NCBI GenBank assembly: GCA_902630355.1
Contig: CACOUL010000005.1
Location: 1 to 64,000, forward strand
Source: Planctomycetaceae bacterium
GTDB lineage: Bacteria; Planctomycetota; Planctomycetia; Pirellulales; UBA7805
Reading direction: 5' to 3'
Length of the DNA: 64,000 nucleotides
Shown: positions 7,779-30,504 of the stretch, piece by piece
Layout: the number at the start of each line of letters is the position of its first letter
Numbering within the stretch: the first letter of the stretch is position 1
The notes under the pieces: generated by a model
The model's database searches: none
What the model was told of the DNA's origin: nothing
What the model saw: only the letters and a program-made list of their open reading frames with translations
Made by a program: the position numbers and the translations under genes

Positions 7779-7879
7779 TCTCGTGTGACAACCATCCGAT
7801 AGTTCACGTAACGAATCGGATTCTGATCCAAATGGTCACGGACGACCCTCGGTTTTCAACACGGCAAAGGATTGCAACC

Positions 7880-9103
7880 ATGCGGATTGTCAATCGATTT
7901 CTGCTTGTGCTCTGTTTGGGTATGCTGATGCGATGCCCCGCACTGGCCCAACCCTACGGCGTATCGGGTGGAAATAATCTGATGCCTGCATCCGGAGGCA
8001 TGGGGGGCACGAGCGTTGCCCGCCCGCAGGATTTCCTCTCCGCCATCAACTTCAATCCCTCGGCACTCACGCAATATGAGGGAACCCAGTTCACGTTGGC
8101 CGGCACTTGGGCCGAACCGACATTCAACCTGGATCAAAACGCGGCCATCCCATCGCTCGGAGTGACGCCGTTTAACGCCAAATCGAGTGCGCCCGGGATC
8201 CTCGCACCGAATATCGGCGTATTCCAACAAATGGAAGTCAACGGTCACGATATGCATGTGGGATTGGCACTAATCTCCGCCTCGGGACTCGGAACCAACT
8301 TCCTGCATATGCCACAGTCGGGAAGTGCCTCTTCCTACTTACTTGTTCTGGAGGTCGCACCGAGTGTCGGCTTTCAGCTGACCGACGATTTGGCCGTTGG
8401 TGCCGGCGTCTTCCTTGGCACTGCCTTTTTAGAGGGGCCCTACGTTGCCCGCTCGGCGATGACCAACGATTATGCGCTCCGCGCGAACGTGGGGCTCGAC
8501 TACGATATGTCGGACGAGACCAACCTGGGATTCTTCTGGAAAACGCGTCAGAACTTTACGTTCCACAACCAGGAAGTCCTTGTACCGGGCACGGCCGGCA
8601 ACGACATTCATCTCGGCCTTCCCGAACAGTTCGGTATCGGTATTGCCAACACCAGTCTCGTCGATGGCCGCCTTTTACTCGCCGCCGATGTCCTGTACTT
8701 CATGTGGGATACGGCCGATTTCTGGAAAAACCAGTACCGCAACCAGTGGATCCTTCAACTTGGAATGCAATACGAACTCAACGACCATATAAAGATCCGC
8801 GCAGGCTACGACTTTGCCGAAAACCCGATCGACGACAATGTGGGCACGACTGGAACCCCCGACCAAAACGCTGCGGCGAAATATACGCAGGCCCAGTTCG
8901 GCGTGATCAACGAAAATCGCTTCACTTTCGGCGTAGGAGCGGCGGATGTTTTGCCGGGGCTCGACTTCGACTTTTTTGCGGGCGGCATGCCACGTGTCTC
9001 CCATAATTTCGGGCCCGATACCCTCGTCAATCTCGAGAGCTACTGGATCGGAGCCGGTTTGACCTGGCGGTTCAGCGACATGTACTACATCGAGCGCCGC
9101 TGA
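7880..9103 (+). CDS. OmpP1/FadL/TodX-family outer-membrane transport protein
   Basis: A predicted outer-membrane beta-barrel of 407 residues for long-chain fatty acids or other hydrophobic compounds. A signal peptide is visible (RFLLVLCLGMLMRCPALAQ). After it comes the FadL-like hatch region GVSGGNNLMPASGGMGGTSVARPQD, then NFNPSALTQYEGTQFTLA. FadL proteins share the NPA-like motif here read as NPSALT. Amphipathic strands alternate through to the C-terminal WIGAGLTWRFSDMYYIERR. The start was moved from 7832 to ATG 7880 so that the signal peptide begins at the N-terminus. Substrate is not deducible. It has no obvious operon partner. Confidence 0.82.
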   Translation: MRIVNRFLLVLCLGMLMRCPALAQPYGVSGGNNLMPASGGMGGTSVARPQDFLSAINFNPSALTQYEGTQFTLAGTWAEPTFNLDQNAAIPSLGVTPFNAKSSAPGILAPNIGVFQQMEVNGHDMHVGLALISASGLGTNFLHMPQSGSASSYLLVLEVAPSVGFQLTDDLAVGAGVFLGTAFLEGPYVARSAMTNDYALRANVGLDYDMSDETNLGFFWKTRQNFTFHNQEVLVPGTAGNDIHLGLPEQFGIGIANTSLVDGRLLLAADVLYFMWDTADFWKNQYRNQWILQLGMQYELNDHIKIRAGYDFAENPIDDNVGTTGTPDQNAAAKYTQAQFGVINENRFTFGVGAADVLPGLDFDFFAGGMPRVSHNFGPDTLVNLESYWIGAGLTWRFSDMYYIERR

Positions 9104-11176: not shown

Positions 11177-11206
11177 GGGACACTGGCCGGCATCCTTCGC
11201 TATAAT
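11177..11206 (+). promoter_or_regulatory. Candidate sigma-70 promoter for the Rieske/cytochrome b genes
   Basis: A perfect TATAAT lies at 11201-11206, about 50 bp before the Rieske start. A weak -35-like GGGACA sits at 11177-11182 with an 18-bp spacer. The position fits the start of the two-gene quinol-oxidising operon. The -35 match is poor, so this is suggestive only. Confidence 0.4.
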
Positions 11207-11255
11207 GAAGTGGCCCTCCTGCGAAATATACAATTCCCTGCCTGACGCAATTCTC

Positions 11256-11825
11256 ATGGAAACGCAATCCCCTTCGTCCGACGTCCCCACTCCGTGCTGC
11301 GGGACAAAGCGTCGCGGAATCCTCAAGGGAGTTTTGGCAGCCGCAATCGGCCTGTTCGTATCGGTTGTTCCGTTGATCCCGGGCCTGGCCGTGCTCTTCA
11401 GCCCACTACGAAGAAAAGGGAACGTGGGCGGCCGGATGATCCGCATCACTACACTCGGCGCGCTGGCCGGGAGTACGCGGCCCCAACGCTTCCAGGTCAT
11501 TGCCTCTCGCCGCGATGCTTGGAACCTCTACCCTCCCGAACCGATCGCTGGAGTGTATCTGGCGCCGCAAGGCGACGGAAAACCACCGAAGGCATTTGCT
11601 GTCACATGCCCTCATTTGGGCTGTGCAGTCGATTTCAACGGTGAGACCGAAGAATATCAGTGTCCCTGTCACACGAGTGCCTTCGCGCTCGATGGCCAAA
11701 CGCTCTACGGACCGAGCCCCCGGGGACTCGACGAGTTGGCGGTGGAAATTCGAGGCGATGAAGTGTGGATCGACTATAAGCGATTTGAAGTAGGGAAAAG
11801 CCAGCAAATTGAGATCCCGTCCTGA
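11256..11825 (+). CDS. Rieske [2Fe-2S] protein of a bc1/b6f-type complex
   Basis: The iron-sulfur subunit that takes the first electron from quinol at the Qo site. The 189-residue protein has an N-terminal membrane anchor with a Tat-like twin arginine (KRRGILKGVLAAAIGLFVSVV). Its C-terminal Rieske fold has the cluster ligands CPHLGC and CPCH, with the usual following P-rich loop (YGPSPRGLDELAV). ATG 11256 is preferred to the track start at 11205, which would place extra residues before the anchor. The cytochrome b-c fusion follows 24 bp later and is certainly its partner. Downstream electrons would pass to the fused cytochrome c domain. Confidence 0.93.
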   Translation: METQSPSSDVPTPCCGTKRRGILKGVLAAAIGLFVSVVPLIPGLAVLFSPLRRKGNVGGRMIRITTLGALAGSTRPQRFQVIASRRDAWNLYPPEPIAGVYLAPQGDGKPPKAFAVTCPHLGCAVDFNGETEEYQCPCHTSAFALDGQTLYGPSPRGLDELAVEIRGDEVWIDYKRFEVGKSQQIEIPS

Positions 11826-11849
11826 GCATTCCGTAAGAGTGGTATTGCG

Positions 11850-13961
11850 ATGAAACAGATTCTCGATTGGATCGATCACCGAACCGGCTACCGCGGTGTC
11901 GTGAAGGAAACGCTTTACGAAAATATCCCAGGCGGTTCCCGCTGGCGGTACGTCTGGGGCAGTACGCTGGTCTTTGTCTTTTTCGTCCAGGTCGTGACTG
12001 GCATCTTCCTTTGGATGGCATACAGCCCGAGCACGCAGACTGCTTGGGAAAGTGTCTATTACCTGCAGTATCACCTCGACGGCGGATGGCTACTGCGCGG
12101 TATTCATCATTATGCCGCACAGATCATGATGATCCTGATGCTGCTGCATGTACTGCAGGTCGTGATCGATGGTGCCTACAAGGCGCCGCGCGAGGTCAAT
12201 TTCTGGTTCGGCTTGCTGCTCATGTTGATCGTGTTCGGCCTGGGGCTCACCGGCTACCTGCTGCCGTGGGATCAAAAGGGATATTGGGCGACGAAAGTGG
12301 CGACCGAAATTGCCGGGAGCGTAGGCCGCGAGGTCCCGGAGATTGCCGTCGGGGGCGCCGACTATGGAACGCAAACCCTCACGCGGTTCTTTGCAATCCA
12401 TGCGGGCGTGCTGCCGGCTTTGCTGGTGGGACTGCTGGTGGTTCACATCGCGCTGTTCCGCCGTCACGGAATCACCGCCAAGTTGAGCGGGCGCCGCGAG
12501 GGATACCAGGAAGATTTCTGGCCCGATCAAGTGCTCAAGGATGCGGTCGCCTGTCTGGCTGTGCTGCTGGTGATTGTGCTTCTTGCCTGGCTGGCACGCG
12601 CGGAACTCGGCGCACCTGCCGATGCGGCGGAAAACTACGCTGCGGCCCGGCCCGAATGGTACTTTTTATTTCTTTTCCAATTTCTCAAATACTTTCCGGG
12701 TGAGTACGGAAAGTTGATCGGAGCCGTGGTGCTGCCGGGGCTACTGGTCGGCTTCATGTTTTTGATGCCGTTTGTCGGTCGCTCGCGGACCGGCCACCGC
12801 TTGAATGTCGCCTTTATCGCCCTGGTACTGATCGGCTCCGCTGTGCTGACGCTCCTGGCACTCGATGAAGACTATTACGCCAAGCGAATCGATAAATCGC
12901 AGATTGCCGAGGCCGAGAAGGCTTTTGAGCAGATTGCCATCGATCTACGGAAGGCAGGGGAGGGCAGCCCGTATCACGGCAAAGAACAAGCGGAACAACT
13001 TGCCATTTTTTCGGGAGATGATCAGGAAGAAGAAAACCTCCTGCAGGAGCAATACGCCCGGTACCAACGCTACCAGACCTCCAAAAATTTTATCGAGGCA
13101 GTCCACGCCGCGGATGTGGAAGCGGAACGCATCAAAGAACTGGCTGTCGAGTGGGACCCGCAGGCGGAGGCCTATCTGCCGAGCATCCCTCCCACCGGCG
13201 CGCTCGCGCTGCTGCGGGCCGATCCCAAAACGCAGGGCCCTAAACTTTTCGGTCGCTACTGCGCGTCCTGCCACGATTATTCGGGGCCGGAGGCGGATAC
13301 CGAGTTTGTCACCGTACACCCGCTCGCCCCGCAGACCGGCGATCATGTTCCCAATGGCGCACCGAACCTCTACCGCTTTGCCAGTCGGCAGTGGATCGCT
13401 GGAATGCTTGACCCGGAGGAGGTTGCCAAAGTCCACCTCGACCGTGAAACGTGGACCGTGACCGACGCGCCCTACTACGGCAACACCAATATTGCAACCG
13501 AAGACGGTGGCATGGTCGAGTTTGTGCAAAACGATCTGGCCGACCTGGATGATGAGGGCAGGGAGAAAATCGAGGCGATCGTCGTTGCCCTCTCCGCCGA
13601 TGCCCGTCTCCCGTACCAGCAAACGCTCGATCAAGAGGCAGAGACGGCAGGGCAGATCGCGGCCGGACGCGAGGCTTTTACCGATGCGTTCGATTCCTAC
13701 GCCTGCTCCGACTGCCACCGCTGGGGCGAAATTGAAGATGCGGAAGATGCCCCCGATCTGACCGGCTACGGCTCAAGGGACTGGATGATCAAGATGATTG
13801 CCGATCCGGCGCACATCTATGGCGAGCACAATGACCGGATGCCCGCCTTCAACCCGCCAGGAAAACCGGAGTCGCAGCAGCTGAGCGACGAAAAAATCGG
13901 CCTCATTGTCGACTGGATCCGCCAGGATTGGCGACCCGGGCCTGCCAAGCCGCAACCGTAG
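11850..13961 (+). CDS. Cytochrome b fused to a diheme cytochrome c
   Basis: A 703-residue quinol-oxidising subunit. Residues ~1-230 are the cytochrome b6-like four-helix domain with paired heme-b histidines (HHYAAQIMMILMLLH and HAGVLPALLVGLLVVH). The subunit-IV-like part follows, with the Qo motif PEWYFLF near residue 270 and further membrane helices to ~340. A charged linker leads to two c-type domains with heme sites CASCH (near residue 470) and CSDCH (near residue 620); NDRMPAF may supply a heme-axial Met. Thus cyt b, subunit IV and cyt c1-like functions are in one chain. It pairs with the Rieske gene just upstream and probably reduces a soluble carrier or oxidase. Confidence 0.95.
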   Translation: MKQILDWIDHRTGYRGVVKETLYENIPGGSRWRYVWGSTLVFVFFVQVVTGIFLWMAYSPSTQTAWESVYYLQYHLDGGWLLRGIHHYAAQIMMILMLLHVLQVVIDGAYKAPREVNFWFGLLLMLIVFGLGLTGYLLPWDQKGYWATKVATEIAGSVGREVPEIAVGGADYGTQTLTRFFAIHAGVLPALLVGLLVVHIALFRRHGITAKLSGRREGYQEDFWPDQVLKDAVACLAVLLVIVLLAWLARAELGAPADAAENYAAARPEWYFLFLFQFLKYFPGEYGKLIGAVVLPGLLVGFMFLMPFVGRSRTGHRLNVAFIALVLIGSAVLTLLALDEDYYAKRIDKSQIAEAEKAFEQIAIDLRKAGEGSPYHGKEQAEQLAIFSGDDQEEENLLQEQYARYQRYQTSKNFIEAVHAADVEAERIKELAVEWDPQAEAYLPSIPPTGALALLRADPKTQGPKLFGRYCASCHDYSGPEADTEFVTVHPLAPQTGDHVPNGAPNLYRFASRQWIAGMLDPEEVAKVHLDRETWTVTDAPYYGNTNIATEDGGMVEFVQNDLADLDDEGREKIEAIVVALSADARLPYQQTLDQEAETAGQIAAGREAFTDAFDSYACSDCHRWGEIEDAEDAPDLTGYGSRDWMIKMIADPAHIYGEHNDRMPAFNPPGKPESQQLSDEKIGLIVDWIRQDWRPGPAKPQP

Positions 13962-16171: not shown

Positions 16172-19138
16172 ATGCAATCGGTATCTGACTTCTGGAATCG
16201 GCTCGACACGAGCGGCGTGGTCGCGGCCGGGCAACTCGAAGGGCTGAAAACCACTGCGCAAGAGGCGCAGGTGACGCAGGATGCGGAACAACTCGCTGCC
16301 TGGCTCGTCACTCAAAATATTCTGACGTCGTACCAGGCCGAAGGGCTGAGAACCGGTGCCCTGACTTTCTTTCACTGGCATGAGTTTCTTATTCTCGAAC
16401 CGGTCGCCCGGGGACCATTTGAGTATCAGATGAGGGCCCGGCATGTCCCGACGCAGCACCCGGTCATCTTGCTGGAACTCAACGAGAGGTCCTTGCGGGA
16501 TTCGGGCGGGTTGCCGGGATTGTTCGAGGCGTGCGAGGTATTTTTTTCCGACTCGTCGTTCTCTTCTGCTCCTCTGCTGATACCGCGCGAGATTCTCTCC
16601 GTCGAAGGGATTTGCCGGGCCGTCTACGATGATCCGGGAGGGACGCCACTTTCGACAGTCCTCTCCGGAGGCAGTCGCTTGAGCGTGTCTGCGGCGGCGG
16701 CATTTATCGCTTCCTGCGCAGAGGCTCTGGCGATACTCCACTCGCATGGCCTGCTGCACGGCGGCGTGAGCCCACAAACTGTCTGGCTTCCTCGCAAGGG
16801 CTCAGCCCAACTCCTTCTCGCGCCCCCTTGGCTCTCGGCCAAAAAGATGCGCCCGGCTCTCAGTGTGAATGACCTCGATTATGCCGCCCCCGAACGGTAC
16901 GGCGCACGCCCGGAGGCAACCGCGGCAGCAGACCTCTATGCCTTGGGCTGTACGCTTTTTGAAATACTGAGCGGACGCCCTCCATTTGCCTGCGGCCAGG
17001 GTGTCTCAGGCAAAATGGAGCGGCATCGATCCGAGCCGATCACATCGCTTCAATCCTACGGCGTCCCGGCCAAGGTGGAACAAATCGTCTGCTACATGAT
17101 GGCCAAAGACCCCAAAATTCGCTACCAAAGTGCCTCGACAATCGCCGAAGCACTGCGGACCTTCATCCTCCAGGAAGACGCACCAAAAATGCGGGCGCCG
17201 ACTGCGGCCTTGCAGGGCTACCTGGCCGTATGCACCTCGCGACGCAAACAGCAACTATCCGAACTCAAACCGCCAACCGAATCGGTCGCCACGGTGGAAC
17301 CTCCTGAGGAATTAAGCGGCGAGGAGGCCGCCCCGGCCACCAGCGATGGCGATCCCTCGGCAAACCGCCCCGATAAGACCGGGAGCGATCATCCCGCACC
17401 TCACGCAGCACCGCCGAGCAGTGATGCTTCGCAAGCAGCACGCATCTTTGAGCAGGTGAGTCAAAATGATCCGTCACCACGGAGTTCGCGGCATAAACGC
17501 GATCACCGCACACGTTCGCTTCTCTGGGCAACGCTCGGGGTCATTTGCGGGATTGGGCTCTGGCTAGCGGTCGAAATGGGCCGACCCTCCGGCACGGAAA
17601 AATCGCTTGATCCTCCGGTTCAGATCGCTGCAACAAACAGCCAAACACCACGTCCCACTGCAGAACCGATGCCGGAAACTGCGCCTCCACCAAATGCCCT
17701 CGACCGAGCGCTACCAGAAGACGATGGGAAAACACTCTGGGCAGCACCCACGCAGGGCACAAATCACCGGCTGAGATACTTACCACCGGGTCCGCAGATG
17801 ATCCTCATGCTCAATGGCCAAAGTCTGGCACGCGAATCGTGGGCGGGCGTACGGTCGGTCGCCGGGGAACCGGCCAATGCAGCGGTCAATGTGCTGATCG
17901 CCATGTCCGGGTTTGAGATCGGCGATATCGAGCGGATTGACCTCGGGGTCTACTCACGTGGAGGGAACATCGAAACGGCAGCCGTTTACTATCTCACCAC
18001 AGGCTACCCTATCGACCAACTGAAGCAGCGATGGAAAACAACCGATCGCGAAAGCTATAACGGCGAGTCAATCCACTTAAGCGGCTCGCAATGCTATTAC
18101 CAACCCCCGGGCAAGCGAGACATTTTCACCGTTGGAAGGCGCGAGGATATTCATCAAGTCATTGACTGGCTCGGGGAAGAAACTCAACTCGATGGGACCA
18201 CGCCGGGTGATGCGCGGGCGGCGGCGACGCCACTGGCCTCACTCGTCGAGTCGTCCGACGATGGCCTCGACCTTCAACTCTTCTTCAACGCAAACTTTAT
18301 TCGCAGTCAACGCAGCGCCCTCTTTTCCGGTATCTGGGCACCACTACATGCGGCTACCACCTGGCTTGTTGGCCCGGGCGAGGCAATCCAGGCCGGAGCG
18401 GTAAGCCTGAACCTTGATCGAACTTTTTTTTGCGAGTTGCGATTCTACTGCTCCCGCGATAAACGACCTGCCTCAGTCGCCGAGACAATTTACAATCGCC
18501 TCTCAGACGCCCCGACGATGCTCAACACCTATCTCCTCGGCCTCCGTCCGAGCGATTACGGTCGGCAAACGTTAGCCCTAATGCCCGACATGCTAAGGTC
18601 GCTCACCCGATACACCCGGCACGATCAAGATCGTCCGCGAGGCCGCCAAGCGATTCTTCGCGCGCATCTCCCGCCCGACGCCGCAGCGCATCTGGCGCTG
18701 GCGGTGGAGTTGTTACTCTATGAGTCCCACGTACCGACAACAATTCCACAATCAGAAGAAACACCCGTCAGTTTGAATCAAAAGCTCAAGCTACAGACCA
18801 CGCTCTCTTTTGATCGGGAAAACCTGCTTCAGGCGGTAACGCAACTTGCGGAAAGTGTCGGCATCGAGATCCAAATCCTTGGTAGCGATCTGGAACAAGA
18901 GGGAATCACTCAGAATCAATCCTTTGGGATCGATCTGCAGAATCGCCCTGCAGTCGAAATTCTTGAGGAGATTCTCCGTCGGGCGAATCCCACCCAGGGT
19001 GTGGCCCTTTCGGACGCCGCACAAGAATTGATTTATGTCATCGACCGTGGAGATATCGGCAGCGATAGTGTGCTCTGGATCACGACCCGAGAGGCCGCCA
19101 AACAGCGAGGCGATAAAATCCCCACACAATTTAAGTGA
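16172..19138 (+). CDS. Membrane-anchored Ser/Thr pseudokinase with C-terminal STN-like domain
   Basis: A 988-residue protein. Residues ~60-335 resemble a protein kinase C-lobe (helix E-like SAAAAFIASCAEALAILHSHGLLHG, then APERYG, then DLYALGCTLFEILSGRPPF). The catalytic HRDxxxxN is replaced by HGGVSPQTVWL and no DFG is seen, so it should be catalytically dead. A Pro/Ser-rich linker precedes a single membrane helix (LLWATLGVICGIGLWLAVEM, ~residues 449-468). The ~500-residue outer part is mostly unknown, but its end (TLSFDRENLLQAVTQLAESVGIEI ... AVEILEEILRRAN) resembles an STN/secretin-type N-domain. It may sense or scaffold. It lies upstream of the STN-module protein and the Tad-like cluster. 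Confidence 0.75.
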   Translation: MQSVSDFWNRLDTSGVVAAGQLEGLKTTAQEAQVTQDAEQLAAWLVTQNILTSYQAEGLRTGALTFFHWHEFLILEPVARGPFEYQMRARHVPTQHPVILLELNERSLRDSGGLPGLFEACEVFFSDSSFSSAPLLIPREILSVEGICRAVYDDPGGTPLSTVLSGGSRLSVSAAAAFIASCAEALAILHSHGLLHGGVSPQTVWLPRKGSAQLLLAPPWLSAKKMRPALSVNDLDYAAPERYGARPEATAAADLYALGCTLFEILSGRPPFACGQGVSGKMERHRSEPITSLQSYGVPAKVEQIVCYMMAKDPKIRYQSASTIAEALRTFILQEDAPKMRAPTAALQGYLAVCTSRRKQQLSELKPPTESVATVEPPEELSGEEAAPATSDGDPSANRPDKTGSDHPAPHAAPPSSDASQAARIFEQVSQNDPSPRSSRHKRDHRTRSLLWATLGVICGIGLWLAVEMGRPSGTEKSLDPPVQIAATNSQTPRPTAEPMPETAPPPNALDRALPEDDGKTLWAAPTQGTNHRLRYLPPGPQMILMLNGQSLARESWAGVRSVAGEPANAAVNVLIAMSGFEIGDIERIDLGVYSRGGNIETAAVYYLTTGYPIDQLKQRWKTTDRESYNGESIHLSGSQCYYQPPGKRDIFTVGRREDIHQVIDWLGEETQLDGTTPGDARAAATPLASLVESSDDGLDLQLFFNANFIRSQRSALFSGIWAPLHAATTWLVGPGEAIQAGAVSLNLDRTFFCELRFYCSRDKRPASVAETIYNRLSDAPTMLNTYLLGLRPSDYGRQTLALMPDMLRSLTRYTRHDQDRPRGRQAILRAHLPPDAAAHLALAVELLLYESHVPTTIPQSEETPVSLNQKLKLQTTLSFDRENLLQAVTQLAESVGIEIQILGSDLEQEGITQNQSFGIDLQNRPAVEILEEILRRANPTQGVALSDAAQELIYVIDRGDIGSDSVLWITTREAAKQRGDKIPTQFK

Positions 19139-19388: not shown

Positions 19389-21155
19389 ATGTTTCAAGCC
19401 TTTACCATGCAGTGCGTCACGTGCGGCGCGCAACTTCGCGTCGAACGTGAAGAGGCGATCGGGCAAATCCTCAACTGCCCTAAATGCAAGAGTATGGTGC
19501 AGATTGAAATGCCCGCCCTCGCAGGGGCAGTAATTCACGAGGCCGCGACTGAACCTCCAACTGAGGAAGGCCTCTCAGCCGATTTGACGGGGAATGCCGG
19601 CCAACCTGAGACCGCAGCACATCAGACACAGACAACGGTCCCCACGCTTCCTCGCAGCCCCGCGATGAAGCTGCCCCAGTGGGCCCTACTGCCGGTCGCC
19701 GCAACGGTGGGGGTGCTGTTCGCCATCGGTGTATGGTCGGCATTTCAACTACCAACTGATCACAACGCAGCTGATAACGACCCGGCCTCACAGAAAATAC
19801 AGTTTAACGAATCGTCACTCACGCCCACCGTAAACTCACCTCAATCTCCGCCAACGCCTGTGGCACCACCAGCGGATCTCGAGTCCGCAGACCGCGATCA
19901 AACGGTTCCTCAAGAGCAGAACGATCGCAGCGCAGCGGCGCCGGAACTACAACACACAGAGCACACAGAGCCTCCCACACGAAACGATGCCGCCCATGGG
20001 GTTGAGGAGGACAACCCCGAGCCAGACTCACCAGCAGAATCGCAACTGCCCACGGACACACCGCACCGGGACGGGGACGTGCAGCAGCACCACAGCGATA
20101 CGGCACAAAAACATTTACCCCCGGCAAGCGACCAGCTCAAAAATCAGATGCTTCGAGAAGTACTTGGGATCACTTTCGAACCAACCTCCTTAAAACGTGC
20201 TGCCGCAACGCTCGCCCAATTATTAGCAGTGCCCATACAAATCGATCTCGCGGCACTCGGCCGGGCCGGCATCGCGCCGGATACACCGGTCGAATATCAA
20301 GGAGATGCCCGACAGTTGCGAGACGTGTTGGCCGAAATGCTCACACCGCTCGGTTTGGTCGCTACCGAAACGGGAGATCGCATTTTCATTACTCTGCCGG
20401 ATGCGGATGATCGGTCATACAGCGAGATGACATACGATGTACCGCTCTCGAGCGATGCAGTGGAGTCGCGCAATTTAATTAAGTCATTTGTTAATCCCGA
20501 TACATGGAAAGGGCAGGGGGGCGCGGGAACGATCACCATCAACGGCAACGCACTGCTGGTTTCGCAGACGCCAGCCGTCCACGGTAACCTCCACCGCTTT
20601 TTCAGTGATTTCCGTGGTGGCACTCAGAGGCTGTCTCCCTCAGTTGACGCAAACATCGTTAAGCACGCCCTCTCTCAAGCGATCAACTGCACGACAGATC
20701 AACCGGTTCCGCTCAGTGACTACCTGCGACAACTCAGCTCTAGAACGGACGTGGAATTCATACTCGACGAACTCCAACTCCTCCGCAATGGTATTTCTCC
20801 GTCGCACCCGATCTCGGTCAGCACACCTGAGCCGACTCTACAGACTCTACTCGAAGAGTTGCTGGCACCTTTGGGACTTGCCTTCCGCCCCCTCTCCGCC
20901 AACACGTTCCTCATCACGCTTCCGGCCGATTGCGAGCCGCAGTTGCGGGTTTATTTTCTCCCGGTTCCTCCTGAAGCCGTCAGGCGTGGAGAAGCGTTAC
21001 TCACTTCGATCCGACAGGAAATTGCCCCCGACTCGTGGCAGACGGCGGGCGGGGAGGGGAAGCTCGCCTTGCACCCGGCATCTCGTCGCTTGATCCTCTT
21101 GCAGCGACCCGAAACACAGCAGAAGGTCACCCACTACCTAAATTCTTTACCCTAG
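19389..21155 (+). CDS. Zinc-ribbon membrane protein with duplicated STN-like modules
   Basis: A 588-residue protein of unknown function. The N-terminus is a zinc ribbon (CVTCGAQLRVE ... LNCPKCKSMV). A membrane helix follows near residue 99 (WALLPVAATVGVLFAIGVW). A long Pro/Glu/Asp-rich linker leads to two copies of a module made of an STN-like domain plus a second domain. Copy one starts near residue 260 (TFEPTSLKRAAATLAQLL, then LIKSFVNPDTWKGQGGAGTI). Copy two starts near residue 430 (PVPLSDYLRQLSSRTDVEF, then SIRQEIAPDSWQTAGGEGKL). STN domains occur in secretins and TonB receptors. The second start MQCVTCG (19407) is also possible. It likely reads or binds something outside the membrane. 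Confidence 0.72.
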   Translation: MFQAFTMQCVTCGAQLRVEREEAIGQILNCPKCKSMVQIEMPALAGAVIHEAATEPPTEEGLSADLTGNAGQPETAAHQTQTTVPTLPRSPAMKLPQWALLPVAATVGVLFAIGVWSAFQLPTDHNAADNDPASQKIQFNESSLTPTVNSPQSPPTPVAPPADLESADRDQTVPQEQNDRSAAAPELQHTEHTEPPTRNDAAHGVEEDNPEPDSPAESQLPTDTPHRDGDVQQHHSDTAQKHLPPASDQLKNQMLREVLGITFEPTSLKRAAATLAQLLAVPIQIDLAALGRAGIAPDTPVEYQGDARQLRDVLAEMLTPLGLVATETGDRIFITLPDADDRSYSEMTYDVPLSSDAVESRNLIKSFVNPDTWKGQGGAGTITINGNALLVSQTPAVHGNLHRFFSDFRGGTQRLSPSVDANIVKHALSQAINCTTDQPVPLSDYLRQLSSRTDVEFILDELQLLRNGISPSHPISVSTPEPTLQTLLEELLAPLGLAFRPLSANTFLITLPADCEPQLRVYFLPVPPEAVRRGEALLTSIRQEIAPDSWQTAGGEGKLALHPASRRLILLQRPETQQKVTHYLNSLP

Positions 21156-22594: not shown

Positions 22595-22659
22595 CTCCCG
22601 GGTCAGAATGGCGATTTTCGGAACTTTCCCTGTACGGCAGGGTTAAACCCCTAGTGACC

Positions 22660-23907
22660 ATGAGCGCCCAACCACCTTACCGATGCCCGAAATGTCGCCT
22701 CCGCCGGACCCGGTCCGCGCTGAGTCCCTCAATGACCGCTTCGCGCCTGCCTTCTCGCCGCGGACTAGCGCCGCTCGAAATGGTGATGGGACTACCGCTG
22801 ATCCTGCTGCTTTTTGCCCTAATTATTAACGCGGGCTTTACAGGCATGTGGAAACTTCGACTTCTCGGTGCCGCGCGGGAAGTTGCCTGGCGATCCCGGG
22901 ACCCGCGCACAAGCAATCTACCGAATCCCGACTATCAATCAAATTTCTGGAGGCAGCCGAACCATTCGGAAGACAAGCCGCTCACCGTGAACGCCTCGGC
23001 GGGGCACCCTTTGAGTATTCCCGACCTTGCTTCTGCCTCTGCCGTTCGCTCGGACTATGGATCGTTGCGAGTCGATACGCAATTACTCGATCCTAAACGC
23101 GGGGTCCTGGAAGGGCAATCCGACGTTGCGAGGAAATTACCTCTGCTTCCCAATGGATTGAAGACGATGCACTCCAATCCGAAACATTACATAACGGACA
23201 ATAGTTTTCCCTTCTGGAATACCAGGCTCTCAAACAACGTCGGCAGACGGACACAGGTGCTTTATGGCGAAGACAATGGCATCGCATCGAGTGAATTTGG
23301 AAACGATTGGGCGGGGTACACAGACTCGGTGGTAAATACCAATGTTGCTCTAATGGCAGACAATCTTCTGCCCCTCGGTGGCTTTCACGTGGAACATAGC
23401 CTATGGCCGAAATACAACGAAGGCCGATACCATGACCCGGAAGTATACACTTGGCAGTATCGTGGCCTTTTGCCGCATCCACCGGGATTCATGCCCCAAA
23501 TCAGTAGTTTCATCAGTTCAGATGCAGACGCCATCCGGCAGAGTCACGTCGACCCTCACGTGCTAAAAATCGAGGACGACGATGACCTGCGTGTCGAAAC
23601 GGGAGCAATTAAGGAGACAGAGAAAAACCTACCGCATTCGCTCGCGGGAAGTTACGTCAGCTTTTTCAGAGATGCGATCGGTTTGGTCCAAGACCATATC
23701 GACCAAGTCAACGAGCAGATACAAATGTCTCAGATGAACTTACAGGCCGCGACGCAAGCCGGAGACACCAATACCATCGCGAGCCTCAAGCAAACAATCA
23801 GTGAACTCCAAAATGAACTTTCGATGGCCACAACGGAGTTTCAACGACGAGAGCAAATCCTCAACCCGGTCATTCAGCAATTAGAAGCCTACCAGTCGGG
23901 TTTCTAG
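22660..23907 (+). CDS. TadE-like pseudopilin / pilus assembly protein
   Basis: Residues 23-58 contain the TadE-type leader and helix: SRRGLAPLEMVMGLPLILLLFALIINAG. In TadE/TadF proteins such a helix follows a prepilin-like processing site. The rest of the ~415-residue protein is much longer than classical TadE (150-200 residues) and ends in a predicted coiled coil (VNEQIQMSQMNLQAATQ ... LKQTISELQNELSMATTEFQRRE). Start choice is uncertain: the track uses GTG 22654, ATG 22660 is shown, and ATG 22732 (MTASRLPSRRGLAPLEM) would give a standard short leader. The Tad-type ATPase and membrane proteins downstream support a role in a pilus or secretion machine. Confidence 0.72.
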   Translation: MSAQPPYRCPKCRLRRTRSALSPSMTASRLPSRRGLAPLEMVMGLPLILLLFALIINAGFTGMWKLRLLGAAREVAWRSRDPRTSNLPNPDYQSNFWRQPNHSEDKPLTVNASAGHPLSIPDLASASAVRSDYGSLRVDTQLLDPKRGVLEGQSDVARKLPLLPNGLKTMHSNPKHYITDNSFPFWNTRLSNNVGRRTQVLYGEDNGIASSEFGNDWAGYTDSVVNTNVALMADNLLPLGGFHVEHSLWPKYNEGRYHDPEVYTWQYRGLLPHPPGFMPQISSFISSDADAIRQSHVDPHVLKIEDDDDLRVETGAIKETEKNLPHSLAGSYVSFFRDAIGLVQDHIDQVNEQIQMSQMNLQAATQAGDTNTIASLKQTISELQNELSMATTEFQRREQILNPVIQQLEAYQSGF

Positions 23908-23981
23908 CGAGGTTGCCCCCAAGATACCCACAGGCATTCTGGCCGCGCCTGCTCCGCTGCTGCACGTTATAATAGGAAGTC

Positions 23982-24962
23982 ATGGACACCCGTCATATCC
24001 AATCCAAAGCAGTGACTCCTAGCGATGAGACGTCATCCCCGGGCAACCCCAATCGATCGTGGTCGGTTTCCGGGGTTGTGGACGCGCTCCAGGGTGCGAT
24101 CAAAACCATACTGACCCTGGCGATCCTTGCACTGTTTTTATATATCGGGCAATACCTTGTGCAGTTCTCCGGCCTCGATTCTCAAGCCGTAACCACGAGG
24201 CCCGCCGACGCTGCCATATTGAACTCGGACAAACCGATGACAATTCGCTTTGCCGATGCACCGTTTGCATTTTACCAAGAACACTATGCGGGCAGTGATG
24301 AGATGCTCCAACAGCGGGTCCAAGAGGCGTGTTATCGAATGGCGGTCGCGAGTCCCTCTCCCGTCACCGCGCCTAGTGCCGAAGAATCCCGTTTGCTCAA
24401 TACGCTCTCCGCGTCCGCTTGCAGTGCGCCGGGGGAGGGCATTCTTGTTTGTCAGGCGAGTCCCACCCTTCCTCTCTTCGTCGGCCTGCGATGCCCTGCG
24501 ACTGACTTCTCTGCCGCCGTGACCCCTGAAATGGTACGCACCGCACGCGTTGTCTCCTGGGGTTTTGCGCTACCGTCAGCAGTCAACGAGTGGAAGATAC
24601 GTGCGATCGGGAAAGGGACAGAGAGCGGAAATATCTCATCGATCTCCTTGCCCCCCGAAGTTCTCAAGATACTGCAACTTAATACACGCGGCGGCGATTC
24701 GATTGTTGCTTTCTCAAGCCAAAGCAAACTTTCTGAACAGATTGCAAGCTTCGACCGTTATTTTGCCGAGCAGCAATGGCAAAAGGGCACTCCATGGAAT
24801 GTATCGAGCGATCATGGTCGCGGCATCTACACCCGCAGAATGGGAGATCGCGTTGAAGAGGCGACCGTTCACATTCAACGGGACGGTTCCTCATCCCCCA
24901 GCGAACGAATCCCTCGCTGGCATGGCATCATCAATATGGAACAATACGATCAAACAGATTAG
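23982..24962 (+). CDS. Single-pass membrane protein of the Tad-like cluster, unknown
   Basis: A 326-residue protein with an N-terminal cytoplasmic tail of ~40 residues, one membrane helix (TILTLAILALFLYIGQYLV, residues ~42-60), and a ~260-residue outer domain with no recognised motif. Two or more Cys residues (EACYRMAV, SASACSAPGEG, LVCQASPT, LRCPATDF) could form disulfides outside the membrane. ATG 23982 has GGAAG just upstream. It lies 74 bp after the TadE-like gene and 38 bp before the CpaB-like gene, so it is probably a machine component. Function unknown. Confidence 0.65.
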   Translation: MDTRHIQSKAVTPSDETSSPGNPNRSWSVSGVVDALQGAIKTILTLAILALFLYIGQYLVQFSGLDSQAVTTRPADAAILNSDKPMTIRFADAPFAFYQEHYAGSDEMLQQRVQEACYRMAVASPSPVTAPSAEESRLLNTLSASACSAPGEGILVCQASPTLPLFVGLRCPATDFSAAVTPEMVRTARVVSWGFALPSAVNEWKIRAIGKGTESGNISSISLPPEVLKILQLNTRGGDSIVAFSSQSKLSEQIASFDRYFAEQQWQKGTPWNVSSDHGRGIYTRRMGDRVEEATVHIQRDGSSSPSERIPRWHGIINMEQYDQTD

Positions 24963-25000
24963 TTTAATTCGACTGACAATCCACACGACGGGATAAAGAC

Positions 25001-25708
25001 ATGAAGGGCATTCAGGGACTGATTATCGCAATTGTCTTGGGACTCGTAGGTTTTGCATTCAACATGTATTACCTCACAAAGAGTCGCGATTTTGCGCACG
25101 ATTCGTTCATCGGAGTCAAAAGAAACGCGAACATCAAGCGCGGTACACCGCTAAGCAAAAATCACTTTGAAAAAATCTCGATCCCTAAAGAATATGTCGG
25201 TAACTTGAAACGATATGCCCTCGTCTGGTCAGACATCGATGCGATTGAGGGCCGCAAGGCGATTCGCGACTATGAAGAGGGGGGCTTGCTGCTGCGTAAC
25301 GATTTCCGAACTGCTCCAAACGAACTTCGCCTAATCGGCGGAGAAACGGCCATATCGGTACCCATCGATACCCGCACCACGAACACCTCGCAAATCATAC
25401 CGGGGGAAACGCGAATATCATTCTATATCCCGAGCGTACGAGGCCAGAGTTCGGATACCGCACTCGAAGGCAATCGTCAATGGATCGGCCCCTTCGATGT
25501 CCTCGCAGTGGGCAACCGCATGGGGTCTACCGACATCGTCGACCAGCAGGGCGGCAGAGGAAACAGTGAAAATCGGGTGACCCTCAAGGCGACCAGCGAA
25601 TCTGGAAGAGACATTAAAGGCATGCCGCAGTTAATGAATTATCTTACGACCAGCAAATTCAAACCGCTCCGATTAAAAATACACGCGGCAAACCCCGATA
25701 GTCGCTAA
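25001..25708 (+). CDS. CpaB/RcpC-like SAF-domain pilus assembly protein
   Basis: A 235-residue protein with an N-terminal membrane helix (GLIIAIVLGLVGFAFNMYYL) followed by an SAF-like segment (GVKRNANIKRGTPLSKNHFEKISIPKEYV) and then AISVPIDTRTTNTSQIIPGETRISFYI, which matches the CpaB/RcpC pattern of alternating 'imposed defaults, override' beta segments. CpaB proteins sit in the periplasm and assist the Tad secretin. The gene lies just upstream of the CpaF ATPase, the usual tad arrangement. The secretin itself (CpaC/RcpA) is not seen here. Length is close to the family's 230-300. Confidence 0.78.
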   Translation: MKGIQGLIIAIVLGLVGFAFNMYYLTKSRDFAHDSFIGVKRNANIKRGTPLSKNHFEKISIPKEYVGNLKRYALVWSDIDAIEGRKAIRDYEEGGLLLRNDFRTAPNELRLIGGETAISVPIDTRTTNTSQIIPGETRISFYIPSVRGQSSDTALEGNRQWIGPFDVLAVGNRMGSTDIVDQQGGRGNSENRVTLKATSESGRDIKGMPQLMNYLTTSKFKPLRLKIHAANPDSR

Positions 25709-25731
25709 CCAATCGTGCCGAGGGAATTTTG

Positions 25732-27687
25732 ATGAAAGTCTGGTTCAATCGCATCAGTGAAAGCCGCCGCTCAATGCTCGAACTCGAGGGAACTGAGTTC
25801 CGAATTGGCCGCGACCAGTCCAACGACATTGTCCTCACAAGTCCACTTGTGTCGCGCGAGCATGCGGTCGTGCGCCTGGTCGGCGAACAACTCGAGCTTG
25901 AAAATCTGGGCATCAACAGCTGCCTCGTCGGAGAAACGGAAATCCTTGGTGGTCAGTCGGCCTCATTTACGCCGGGCGCTAAAATTCGAATCTGGCCTTA
26001 TACGATTTCATTTCAACGCGAAACAGAATCGAGCTATAGCCAGACAGAAATCGAGTCGCATTTGCGTCGTCAAATGGCAAAACTTGAACTCGATATTCAT
26101 CAAAAGCTTCTGGAACGACTCGATCTTTACGAATTCGAGGGTGAGCGGGGCGCAACGCAAGACAGCATCATTCTCCTGGAAAACAATATTGAGGATGTCT
26201 GCCGGGACCTCAACCTTTTTGGCGATCAAAACGAAGCGTTGCTCGAAGAAATTACAGGCATCACACTTCGCGACCAACTTGTCAATCAGTTGATCCTGGA
26301 AACGGGTGAGGACGACGTCGTTTTTGACCTTGCGGTCTTAACCAGCAACGAGTTTGATATTCCCGCTACACTCGTACCGGAACGAGAAACGGAGCTTCAT
26401 AGCCTGCTGACCTTTATCCGGGAGAAGTTGGCGTTAAACGAATTGCCGGATGTGAGCAGTCGTGTTCGCACTTTAGAACAAAAGTTTGCCGAAACATTTC
26501 ATCTCGTGCGACCCCACCTTCATGGCGAATTACGCAAATATCTTATCCTTCGTGCAATAAAGAAAGATCTCAAAGATACCGTATTCGGGTTCGGGCCTTT
26601 ACAGGATCTACTGCGGGCACCGACGATCACCGAGATCATGGTGGTCCAGAGCGATCAGATTTTTGTCGAGCGCGACGGCATTATCGAAAACTCCGGAAGG
26701 CGTTTTCTCTCCGAAAAGGTAACCGAAGCGATCATCGAAAGGATCGTAGCCCAAGTTGGCAGACGAATCGACAAAAGCCAACCGCTTGTTGACGCTCGGC
26801 TTCCTGACGGGTCCCGCGTCAATGCCATCATTCCGCCGCTGGCAATTAAGGGGCCGTGCCTGACGATACGAAAATTCCCCATTCAGCGTCTGGCAATGGA
26901 TGACCTTATTGAATTTGGAAGCATCTCCAGGTCAGCGGCAACATTTCTTCGCTCGGCGGTGATTGACGGTCGGAATATCTTAGTCAGTGGGGGTACTGGC
27001 ACGGGAAAAACCACCTTCCTTAATATTCTTTCCAGTTTCATTCCATACAAGCAACGGATTGTCACGATCGAAGACACCACGGAACTGCGACTGCATCAAG
27101 AACATGTGGTAACCCTTGAATCAAAGCCCGCCAATGTCGAGGGGGTAGGGGAATATACCATCCGGGACTTGGTCACCAATGCGCTTCGAATGAGACCCGA
27201 TAGAATTCTGGTCGGTGAGTGTCGCGGTGGTGAAGCGCTCGACATGGTTCAGGCGATGAACACCGGCCACGACGGATCGATGACCACCCTCCATGCAAAC
27301 AGCGCAGATGAGGTTTTGGAGCGACTTGAGGTCCTCATTCTGATGGCTGCCGATCTCCCCGTAATCTCTATCCACCGACAGGTAACGTCCGCAATCGACC
27401 TGATTGTCCACATTGACCGCTGGCCCGGAGGGCAGAGAAAAGTAACCCAGATTGCCGAGATCACAGGGATCGATCCGGATACCAAGCGTGCGAACACGAC
27501 CGATATCTACAACATCCGACAAACTTCCAGTTCGCTGCGGCCCACAGGATATCTTCCGAGTTTCATTGATAGCCTGGTTGATAAAAACCTGATCGATTTA
27601 GATTTCCTGTACGAAAACTACAATGAATCCGCAAATCAACCATCGACTAACGGGGAAACACTCTCCTCAAACGAGCCCTTCGGGTAA
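25732..27687 (+). CDS. cpaF: FHA domain fused to CpaF/TadA-type secretion ATPase
   Basis: A 651-residue hexameric ATPase predicted to power assembly or secretion at the inner membrane. Residues ~15-95 form an FHA domain (FRIGRDQSNDIVL, SREHAVVRL), which binds phosphothreonine peptides. A helical linker leads to the CpaF core: LQDLLRAPTITEIMV, VDARLPDGSRVNAIIPP, Walker A GGTGTGKTTFL (near residue 420), IEDTTELRL, the Walker B region RILVGECRGGEALDM and the His box STTLHANSADEVLERLE (read MTTLHANS). ATG 25732 follows the AGGG of gccgAGGGaattttg. The FHA head suggests control by one of the protein kinases encoded nearby. Confidence 0.93.
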   Translation: MKVWFNRISESRRSMLELEGTEFRIGRDQSNDIVLTSPLVSREHAVVRLVGEQLELENLGINSCLVGETEILGGQSASFTPGAKIRIWPYTISFQRETESSYSQTEIESHLRRQMAKLELDIHQKLLERLDLYEFEGERGATQDSIILLENNIEDVCRDLNLFGDQNEALLEEITGITLRDQLVNQLILETGEDDVVFDLAVLTSNEFDIPATLVPERETELHSLLTFIREKLALNELPDVSSRVRTLEQKFAETFHLVRPHLHGELRKYLILRAIKKDLKDTVFGFGPLQDLLRAPTITEIMVVQSDQIFVERDGIIENSGRRFLSEKVTEAIIERIVAQVGRRIDKSQPLVDARLPDGSRVNAIIPPLAIKGPCLTIRKFPIQRLAMDDLIEFGSISRSAATFLRSAVIDGRNILVSGGTGTGKTTFLNILSSFIPYKQRIVTIEDTTELRLHQEHVVTLESKPANVEGVGEYTIRDLVTNALRMRPDRILVGECRGGEALDMVQAMNTGHDGSMTTLHANSADEVLERLEVLILMAADLPVISIHRQVTSAIDLIVHIDRWPGGQRKVTQIAEITGIDPDTKRANTTDIYNIRQTSSSLRPTGYLPSFIDSLVDKNLIDLDFLYENYNESANQPSTNGETLSSNEPFG

Positions 27688-27717
27688 CATAACCTGCATT
27701 TTTTGGCGTAGTCGTCC

Positions 27718-28587
27718 ATGCTCCTGGCCAATTCATCACCCAATGAAATTGTCATTCTCGCCTCCTCGCTCTTTGTGGGCGCAGGTGTGGGACTTTTTTC
27801 ATATGCGTCAAAACCGTACTACTTGCGCGGCATCGATTATCTCGAAGCTGATTTTTCTGATAAGTTCCGCCGTCTTCAGATAAGCACGAGCAAACTACGG
27901 CTCGGACTTATTCTCTGGTCGATTGGCCTGCTTGTCATTTTCCTCGTGTTCACCCTCTTGCTGGGGAGTCTCATCTTCGGATTCCTAAGCACCCTGTTGC
28001 TCTTTTCAGGCCCATGGTGGTATCTGAGACGGAAAGCGCAGATACGACGCGACCAAATTGAAGACCAGCTTGCCGACGCAATGGTTTCTCTTTCAAGCGC
28101 CATCCGAGCCGGCGTTTCATTGCCCCAGGCAGTCGAGATGCTGGCAGACAACTCCCCCCAACCGATCAAGAGTGAATTTGGGTACATCATGACCGACTAC
28201 GAAATGGGCAAGCCGCTCGATCGTGCCCTTCAGGAAGCCAAAGAACGTCTCCGCAGCGAGAATTTTGCTCTGTTTGCTGCCGCAATTCTTGCAAGTCGTG
28301 ATAGTGGCGGCCGACTCAACGAGACCGTGGACCGCATCGCACATTCGGTACGCGAACTGCAGCGCCTGGAGCGGAAGGTACAATCCGATACGGCAATGGC
28401 CCGAAAAAGTGCCATCTACATGGCCATTGCCCCGTTCATTATCCTGGCAGCCTATTACTTCCTCGATAGTGGAGCGGTTTCCAATTTATTCAGCACCACG
28501 ATCGGACAAATGCTCCTTGCGGCTTCGATTGTATTGAACATCATTGCCTATTTGTGGGCGCGACACATCTTGAACCCCGATATCTAG
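27718..28587 (+). CDS. tadB: TadB-like inner-membrane platform protein (T2SS F family)
   Basis: A 289-residue membrane protein. N-terminal hydrophobic segments (NEIVILASSLFVGAGVGLFSY, then LILWSIGLLVIFLVFTLLLGSL) precede the cytoplasmic GspF-like domain (DQLADAMVSLSSAIRAGVSLPQAVEMLA ... MGKPLDRALQEAKERL ... LFAAAILASRDSGGRLNE), and two more helices end the protein. TadB and TadC form the platform contacted by the CpaF ATPase. It lies 30 bp after cpaF and 21 bp before tadC, so one transcript is likely. Assignment as TadB rather than TadC rests on gene order. Confidence 0.88.
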   Translation: MLLANSSPNEIVILASSLFVGAGVGLFSYASKPYYLRGIDYLEADFSDKFRRLQISTSKLRLGLILWSIGLLVIFLVFTLLLGSLIFGFLSTLLLFSGPWWYLRRKAQIRRDQIEDQLADAMVSLSSAIRAGVSLPQAVEMLADNSPQPIKSEFGYIMTDYEMGKPLDRALQEAKERLRSENFALFAAAILASRDSGGRLNETVDRIAHSVRELQRLERKVQSDTAMARKSAIYMAIAPFIILAAYYFLDSGAVSNLFSTTIGQMLLAASIVLNIIAYLWARHILNPDI

Positions 28588-28608
28588 CTTTTCCAAGAGA
28601 AAATCCGC

Positions 28609-29550
28609 ATGTCTCCCGAAATGCAACTTCATTCTGCAGCACCCGACTTGCTTATCGTCCGCCTGATAGCGAGCGGGGCGATCGCCACCGGTCTGGCAAT
28701 TCTAGGGTGGTGGATCATCTGCTCCCTCGCCTCGGAAGACCTGGAACAGAAAAACGAGTGGCGATTCGATATTAACCGTGTGAATGAACTCCGCCGGCTT
28801 GATCAGGTTTTCCGCACCTTTCAACCCGCGATCCAGCTTTTTGCCCGCATCAACCGCAACATGTTCGCCGAGTCTCTCCCTTCAATCGCACGGGAAATCA
28901 ATGCGGCGGGGCTTCCTCGTTTTTGGCTACCCGAAGAGTATTTGGGGAAACTCCAGTTTTTTGCTGCGGTGCTCACACCCGTTTATCTCTGGTTTTTTGT
29001 CAGCTCATTCGGTGAGATTGGGATTGCGCTGGCTTTCATGGGGTTTATCGCAACCGCATGGATTCTTCGACTCCACCTAAGAAATCGCGCACTTTATCGT
29101 GTCGTACTGATCAAGCGTCGCCTCCCGTTTTTGCTCGACCTTATGACGCTCCTGATGGAGGCGGGCTCGACCTTCCTTCACGCACTTCGCCAGGGCGTCC
29201 AGGAATTCGAGGGACATCCCGTGGCTTTTGAGTTTGGCCGCGTGCTGGCGGACATGCAAATGGGAAAGACTCGCACCGATGCATTCCAGGCCATGCAGTC
29301 ACGTCTGGCCGACGATGAAATTTCGAGTATTATTTCGTCGATTATCCAGGGGGAGCAACTCGGTTCGCCCCTCGCCCAGGTATTTCGCATTCAATCAGAT
29401 GTGCTTCGGATCAAGCGGACACAACGCGGCGAAAAGATTGCAGCCGAGGCGGGAGTCAACATGCTGTTACCCGGAATTCTCATCATGCTTTCAACTGTTT
29501 TAATTATCCTGGGACCATTTTTGATAAACGCGGTTGGATTTTTAAATTAA
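28609..29550 (+). CDS. tadC: TadC-like inner-membrane platform protein (T2SS F family)
   Basis: A 313-residue protein with a first helix (IASGAIATGLAILGWWIICSL), two central helices, the GspF domain (RLPFLLDLMTLLMEAGSTFLHALRQGV ... MQMGKTRTDAFQAMQSRL ... ISSIIQGEQLGSPLAQVFRIQS) and a final helix (LLPGILIMLSTVLIILGPFL). The pattern matches TadC. It follows tadB after 21 bp and is followed after 18 bp by the zinc-ribbon protein. With TadB it should form the membrane platform for the ATPase. Confidence 0.88.
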   Translation: MSPEMQLHSAAPDLLIVRLIASGAIATGLAILGWWIICSLASEDLEQKNEWRFDINRVNELRRLDQVFRTFQPAIQLFARINRNMFAESLPSIAREINAAGLPRFWLPEEYLGKLQFFAAVLTPVYLWFFVSSFGEIGIALAFMGFIATAWILRLHLRNRALYRVVLIKRRLPFLLDLMTLLMEAGSTFLHALRQGVQEFEGHPVAFEFGRVLADMQMGKTRTDAFQAMQSRLADDEISSIISSIIQGEQLGSPLAQVFRIQSDVLRIKRTQRGEKIAAEAGVNMLLPGILIMLSTVLIILGPFLINAVGFLN

Positions 29551-29568
29551 CCCACAGCGAAACGCACT

Positions 29569-30504
29569 ATGGCAATTGAGCTTGATTGTCCCCGTTGCAA
29601 CCGGAGCCTTTCTCTGGCCGACGAGTTAGCCGGGCAGTATGCGCAGTGCAAACATTGCGAGGGGCGAATCTGGGTATCGGCACCTCAAGCGCCGAAGTCC
29701 GGTCAACCCTCTTCTCGCAGTCAACCACCACCTGTGCCGTCCGTCACTGGGCCAACACCGGGGGGAGACTCCGGGCATGATGAAGTCAGTCCCACCCCAC
29801 TCCCGACAGCCAGCCATGTCGCGGCGCCACCCCTGACCAACACGACGGACATGCCGACACAGCCTCCACCAACTGCGTCCACTGACACCAACTCGAGTGA
29901 CATGGCGACAGAAAGGTCGGTTTCACCGCCACCGATAACCGCTTCACCTGCCAATCCCCCGCCGCCACCAAAAAAAAATAAACGGGTCGCTGAATTAATA
30001 GCGGCCGAACCGGCACAGTCACGACTTGAAGTCGGGCCCGGCGGAGACCTCCCCGAACTAAGCCTTTCGGCCGGTGAAGATCAAGACAGCGATCAGAAGC
30101 AGAAGAAAAAATCAAATGACTGGCTGGTTTTTGCTGTAATCATCATGAGTCTCGTTGTCTCCACCGCGATGCTCATGATAGATAGCGAAACAAACCAAAG
30201 CGTTCAAGGTGAGACAAAGCAACATATTCGTGATAAAATCAAAGCCAAATATTTCGGGCCTCCGGAAGGCCCGTGGCGGAAGTATCAACAGCTACTGCGT
30301 GATGCAGCGCTTGCGAGGAGTCAAGGCGATTTTGAAAAGGAAGAACAAAACTACCGGTTGGTTTTGTATCAACTCAATGCGGCTGATCTCGACAAAACTG
30401 ACCAGGGGGTAACCGGACTCCGCAGAGCGACGAGGAACGACGCGTCCCTTCCGAGCGACGAGGAACTCAAAACGCTTCTGCACGCACTGCTATATAACAA
30501 TTAA
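29569..30504 (+). CDS. Zinc-ribbon, single-pass membrane protein after tadC
   Basis: A 311-residue protein of unknown function. An N-terminal zinc ribbon (CPRCNRSLSLADELAGQYAQCKHCEGRIWV) is followed by a ~130-residue Pro/Thr/Ser-rich, probably disordered linker, one membrane helix near residue 185 (WLVFAVIIMSLVVSTAMLMI) and a ~100-residue helical outer domain. The architecture parallels the proteins at 14080 and 19389. Its position between tadC (18 bp gap) and the kinase-caspase gene (20 bp gap) places it in the same operon. The linker could be a kinase target for FHA binding, but that is speculation. Confidence 0.7.
   Translation: MAIELDCPRCNRSLSLADELAGQYAQCKHCEGRIWVSAPQAPKSGQPSSRSQPPPVPSVTGPTPGGDSGHDEVSPTPLPTASHVAAPPLTNTTDMPTQPPPTASTDTNSSDMATERSVSPPPITASPANPPPPPKKNKRVAELIAAEPAQSRLEVGPGGDLPELSLSAGEDQDSDQKQKKKSNDWLVFAVIIMSLVVSTAMLMIDSETNQSVQGETKQHIRDKIKAKYFGPPEGPWRKYQQLLRDAALARSQGDFEKEEQNYRLVLYQLNAADLDKTDQGVTGLRRATRNDASLPSDEELKTLLHALLYNN

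Follow-up and report, generated by a model that had tools for sequence, protein, structure and literature searches.

Gene layout and surroundings of the locus

We analysed a stretch of 64,000 nucleotides from a planctomycete contig, hereafter the window, whose forward strand carries at positions 16172 to 19138 a gene for a membrane protein with a kinase fold, followed by the gene of a second membrane protein. Both halves of the first protein were modelled by AlphaFold2, each from an alignment of its own orthologues, and the following features were recognised.

16172..19138, + strand: gene of the predicted membrane pseudokinase, 988 amino acids, stop included in the coordinates, reading frame open
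16172..16357, + strand: N-terminal four-helix domain, residues 1-62 (AlphaFold2 model, alignments)
16367..17191, + strand: predicted pseudokinase domain, residues 66-340 (Pfam, profile, AlphaFold2, Foldseek)
16463..16474, + strand: VILL (V98-I-L-L101) replacing VAIK, with loss of the beta3 Lys (orthologue alignment)
16757..16780, + strand: HGGVSPQT replacing HRDxKPxN, residues 196-203 (orthologue alignment)
16817..16825, + strand: LAP (L216-A217-P218) replacing DFG (orthologue and PknB profile alignment)
17516..17572, + strand: transmembrane helix, residues 449-467, with a basic stretch just before it (hydropathy, sequence)
17717..18751, + strand: periplasmic TP0453-like domain, residues about 516-860 (AlphaFold2, Foldseek)
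18779..19135, + strand: STN/N0-like domain, residues 870-988, with conserved GIT[KQ]NQ and ITTR motifs (model, profile comparison)
19389..21155, + strand: partner gene, 588 amino acids, with a cytosolic zinc ribbon (9-33), a transmembrane helix (99-117) and two STN-like domains

A low-complexity linker joins the kinase fold to the transmembrane helix, the only one that hydropathy indicates in the protein. The N-terminal helical domain, which alignments also place in other planctomycete kinases, and the TP0453-like domain were both absent from the initial annotation of this gene. An NCBIfam scan of the protein returned kinase matches alone, all far under the cut-offs, and scans for Rfam families, promoters and terminators gave nothing useful. 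Elsewhere in the window, we observed a FadL/TodX-type outer-membrane protein (7832-9103), a protein with EF-hand repeats (34712-35587), and a Rieske protein followed by a cytochrome b/cytochrome c fusion of 703 amino acids (11205-13961), the last two possibly forming an alternative bc-type complex.

An old kinase fold that has lost its catalytic residues

Several methods agreed on the kinase fold. The Pfam Pkinase model scored 42.4 bits (cut-off 31.7) and covered the C-lobe only (residues 159-321), and a profile built from 30 orthologues aligned with PknB across both lobes (E 4.8e-44). The AlphaFold2 model of this half displayed two lobes with an intact N-lobe sheet (pLDDT 88.2, pTM 0.87), and PknB was again the top match when the model was searched with Foldseek (E 2e-13). 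Together with the lost motifs and the transmembrane helix, these results bear out the description of the protein as a membrane pseudokinase, and the structure prediction that had been proposed as a check gave a two-lobed kinase.

The window domain retains APERYG at residues 239-244 and DLYALGCTLFEILSG at residues 254-268, and it is without all three of the VAIK Lys, the HRD Asp and the DFG Asp; the catalytic-loop Asn is gone too. The earlier reading of the motifs, with APERYG kept, HGG for HRD, SPQT for KPxN and DFG missing, was thus correct, and the loss of the beta3 Lys (VILL) has to be added to it. Judged by these residues, the domain is a pseudokinase that has lost its catalytic residues and is predicted to lack phosphotransfer.

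The same condition was found among the orthologues. In 30 orthologous kinase domains of Pirellulales (the order being taken from the names of matched records), neither DFG nor the Arg of HRD occurred in a single case, the DFG position was hydrophobic in all 30 (for example FPL, PPW, NPL), and the beta3 Lys was absent in nearly all. Most orthologues carry HG-x at the HRD place, where the window has HGG, and a few have an Asp there; L044 and L051, of the window's own family, are the only ones with both the beta3 Lys and HGD, so that nucleotide binding may still be possible in these two. Little or no variation was seen in the APE motif, at the alpha-F Asp (D254) or at R317. Among the search matches, the further kinases from the window's own genome kept VAxK and, with few exceptions, HRD and DFG in a simple pattern search.

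Phylogenetically, the pseudokinase domains formed one clade relative to 15 other kinases (SH-aLRT 100), which supports one origin for them but falls short of proof, because the outgroup is small and the common loss of motifs may help the grouping. For residues 66-340, dN/dS was 0.04-0.14 in the five closest pairs, with similar values for the periplasmic part; dS was high in several pairs, so these values are rough, yet far from 1. In all five pairs the kinase region also had lower dN/dS than the segment flanking the transmembrane helix. The catalytic residues were lost early in Pirellulales, and the domain has been under purifying selection ever since. Orthologues with intact HRD and DFG, which had been named as the sign of local decay, were sought and found in 0 of 30; since no active orthologue was found and dN/dS is well below 1, local decay of a kinase was ruled out.

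A pseudokinase fold may also bind ATP or another nucleotide as a sensor, or carry a new catalytic activity, and in this way regulate the periplasmic half from inside. The two-lobed fold and its intact N-lobe sheet, the Lys and HGD kept in L044 and L051, and the precedent of SelO and SidJ, in which new activities arose on pseudokinase folds (PMC12599244), are in favour of such a role. However, the family conserves no polar triad, all 30 orthologues have a hydrophobic DFG position and nearly all have lost the beta3 Lys, and we regard this explanation as unlikely.

The periplasmic core, its partner gene and the exchange of cytosolic modules

The AlphaFold2 model of the periplasmic half, a region that has no Pfam entry, reached a pLDDT of 89.6. 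Searched with Foldseek, it retrieved all six chains of TP0453 first (E 3.1e-7 to 1.4e-6, probability 1.00), a match that is moderate in quality (TM score 0.47-0.54 on the target, rmsd 7-10 Å), and also a chain of the Dot/Icm outer-membrane complex (probability 1.00, E 6e-3) and LspD (probability 0.77). A profile search of PDB sequences with this half returned no match to TP0453 or any solved protein. As modelled, the periplasmic half shares its fold, but no detected sequence similarity, with the lipoprotein TP0453. TP0453 reportedly has membrane-inserting helices and an effect on permeability.

The C-terminal tail displayed the order beta-alpha-beta-beta-alpha-beta-beta in the model. In profile comparisons by hhalign it scored 96% (E 4.8e-9) against the STN-like domain of the partner protein and a lower 73.6% against Pfam-positive STN domains, the negative control giving 0.2%. 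The Pfam STN model (PF07660) found nothing in the window tail and matched 3 of 39 orthologues at E >= 0.06, none significantly, for which reason we term the tail STN-like. Secondary-structure order and profile comparison therefore agree with the STN-like tail of the initial annotation, though under the Pfam cut-off, and the predicted structure of the C-terminus is likewise STN/N0-like. Pfam detected no secretin channel or TonB barrel domain in either protein of the pair, and a plain secretin or TonB receptor was accordingly ruled out.

The partner was the adjacent downstream gene on the same strand in 36 of 40 sampled loci of relatives (35 recognised by clustering and L055 by profile), and in at least one partner orthologue (G013) the Pfam STN model exceeded its cut-off. 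The four loci without an adjacent partner all belong to family f7, which keeps the protein; in family f17 there is a partner-like gene and the periplasmic profile is absent. Both families count against a two-protein complex. In family f22, which probably belongs to the order Planctomycetales, the gene of a zinc-ribbon/STN-like protein comes next in at least 8 of 13 loci. The window pair is separated by 250 bases, so a single transcript is not certain for it. Overall, the core of the system is the periplasmic half, TP0453-like and then STN/N0-like, which is nearly always encoded beside a second membrane protein with STN-like domains.

Some variation was seen around the pair. The partner protein is longer in L042, L043 and L056, and in L042 and L043 it seemingly contains, by eye, an extra module resembling the periplasmic domain of the first protein; DUF1559, common in planctomycetes, was matched by 3 of 31 partner proteins. 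In f22 loci, a gene for a BFD-type [2Fe-2S] protein comes after the pair, and in two of them (L170, L175) genes for an ABC ATPase and an FtsX/MacB-type permease come next. Across the 40 loci, frequent neighbours were DAHP synthase and glutamate dehydrogenase; a functional hint from these, from IspD, histidinol dehydrogenase and others was rejected, as they are housekeeping genes and vary among lineages.

Of 199 sampled Planctomycetia genomes, 102 were matched by the periplasmic-half profile, a few of them through weak partial matches, and many f22 members, outside Pirellulales, were among them. The f22 version has a zinc ribbon and a transmembrane helix at its N-terminus. The kinase-fold domain in Pirellulales thus occupies the place of the zinc ribbon in a related order; whether the zinc ribbon gave way to the kinase or the reverse depends on the position of the root.

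The kinase domain was present in 29 of 40 sampled loci. It is absent in Lacipirellulaceae, where the forms of Lacipirellula, Aeoliella and Adhaeretor have 533-579 amino acids and the partner is next in all; the same short form occurs in family f6, four members of which (L063-L066, Lacipirellulaceae-like) have lipobox-like N-termini replacing the kinase and the transmembrane helix. L059 is also without a kinase, with no remnant of one upstream. L079/L137, a member of the window's own family, has lost the kinase fold but kept the N-terminal helical domain of 66 amino acids, and this domain may therefore have a role of its own. In a tree of the periplasmic half, the kinase forms fell into one cluster, and four architecture changes were needed, at least three of them kinase losses, one in the paralogue L189; L079 had been scored as kinase owing to its N-terminal domain and adds one more loss. 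The L189 paralogue (L189:9696-11615) is kinase-less and has two tandem STN-like domains at its C-terminus. In kinase-less members the periplasmic half stays, and in most of them the partner gene stays as well. The kinase half is dispensable across the family.

These repeated losses with retention of the periplasmic half (Lacipirellulaceae, L059, L079/L137) would be expected if the pseudokinase were an inert remnant of a gene fusion, serving topology or folding alone, with only the periplasmic half of importance. Its retention in 29 of the 40 loci at dN/dS of 0.04-0.14, and selection on a whole kinase fold that a passive anchor would not need, argue against this account, which we consider about as improbable as a nucleotide sensor.

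The initial annotation had further proposed that the protein serves the downstream Tad-type secretion cluster (22654-30504) as a receptor or scaffold. This cluster lies 3.5 kb away on the same strand of the window, secretins contain STN-like domains, and the cluster includes an FHA-domain ATPase and an active kinase. However, the Tad genes, from 22654 onward, had cluster mates in just two other loci, which belong to the window's genus, while the protein is order-wide and its periplasmic half class-wide without linked Tad genes; the secretin channel domain is missing as well. That the protein is a scaffold or docking module is plausible, but a link to the secretion cluster is unsupported and in our judgement very improbable, and a functional tie was rejected on neighbourhood, the linkage being confined to three loci of one genus. 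The cluster itself contains a Tad-type ATPase with an N-terminal FHA domain (25729-27687) and is followed by an active-looking Ser/Thr kinase with HGD and DFG (30525-34019), which together might form a phospho-regulated pilus or secretion system.

A putative two-protein envelope complex and its relation to known systems

Our preferred explanation, to which we give a probability of roughly 60%, is that the pseudokinase serves as a non-catalytic docking module on a subunit of an envelope complex made of two proteins. The gene product would be one subunit of a cell-envelope complex of the class Planctomycetia, in which the two proteins may bind each other via STN-STN contacts in the periplasm and the TP0453-like domain may act at the outer membrane or close to it. 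The pseudokinase, presumed to be without phosphotransfer, would offer a docking surface in the cytosol, through which it might dimerise, bind a cytosolic partner or be phosphorylated by the active kinases of the cell, uses of the kind described for EssB/YukC and MviN; the complex would be separate from the neighbouring Tad machinery. More tentatively, and with considerable doubt, the pair might lie at the heart of a trans-envelope machine specific to planctomycetes, serving for instance the traffic of outer-membrane lipids or proteins, in which the dead kinase of Pirellulales replaces the zinc ribbon as a cytosolic control point.

Few bacterial membrane pseudokinases are understood. The family described here is a new membrane-pseudokinase family with an undescribed periplasmic partner system; a review of pseudokinases names no planctomycete family (PMC12599244), and a survey of planctomycete kinases leaves pseudokinases unmentioned (PMC11032199). 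In Pirellulales it is old, selected and bound to a conserved partner gene. In addition, the zinc ribbon, pseudokinase, plain transmembrane anchor and lipoprotein forms on one periplasmic core make up a natural series for testing the contribution of the dead kinase. Furthermore, the periplasmic domain, which lies outside Pfam yet is matched in roughly half of the class's sampled genomes, offers a way into an unexplained part of the planctomycete envelope.

Among known systems, the STN/secretin N0 domain (PF07660) shares secondary-structure order and profile similarity with the tail, which differs in its sub-cut-off score, its insert with the DLQLEGITKNQ motif and the lack of an attached channel or barrel. 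TP0453 of Treponema pallidum resembles the periplasmic domain in fold (Foldseek E 3e-7) and, in four members, has a counterpart in the lipoprotein-like anchor, whereas no sequence similarity was detected and the window protein has a transmembrane anchor, an additional STN-like domain and a pseudokinase. In the GLW pseudokinases of Proteobacteria, the beta3 Lys is likewise replaced by a hydrophobic residue and a transmembrane helix follows the kinase domain (PMC12599244); at HRD the window protein has HGG and not GLW. The pseudokinase domain of MviN (ActPs3 family, Mycobacterium), also membrane-bound with an external domain, is homeostatic and not required for core function (PMC12599244); in contrast, our protein has no fused MurJ-type flippase (Pfam), a single transmembrane helix and other substitutions, and comes from another phylum. 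EssB/YukC of the type VII secretion system b similarly combines a cytosolic pseudokinase, three degraded motifs, a short activation loop, one transmembrane helix and an external domain, and its pseudokinase was reported as a non-catalytic scaffold (PMC12599244). It differs in that type VII domains were absent among the neighbours scanned here, the conserved ones being the STN gene and metabolic genes, and in that our family has a TP0453/STN-like external half, belongs to another phylum and carries the kinase half as an option. Nevertheless, EssB/YukC and MviN indicate that proteins built in this way can act as non-catalytic scaffolds or regulators of an envelope machine (PMC12599244).
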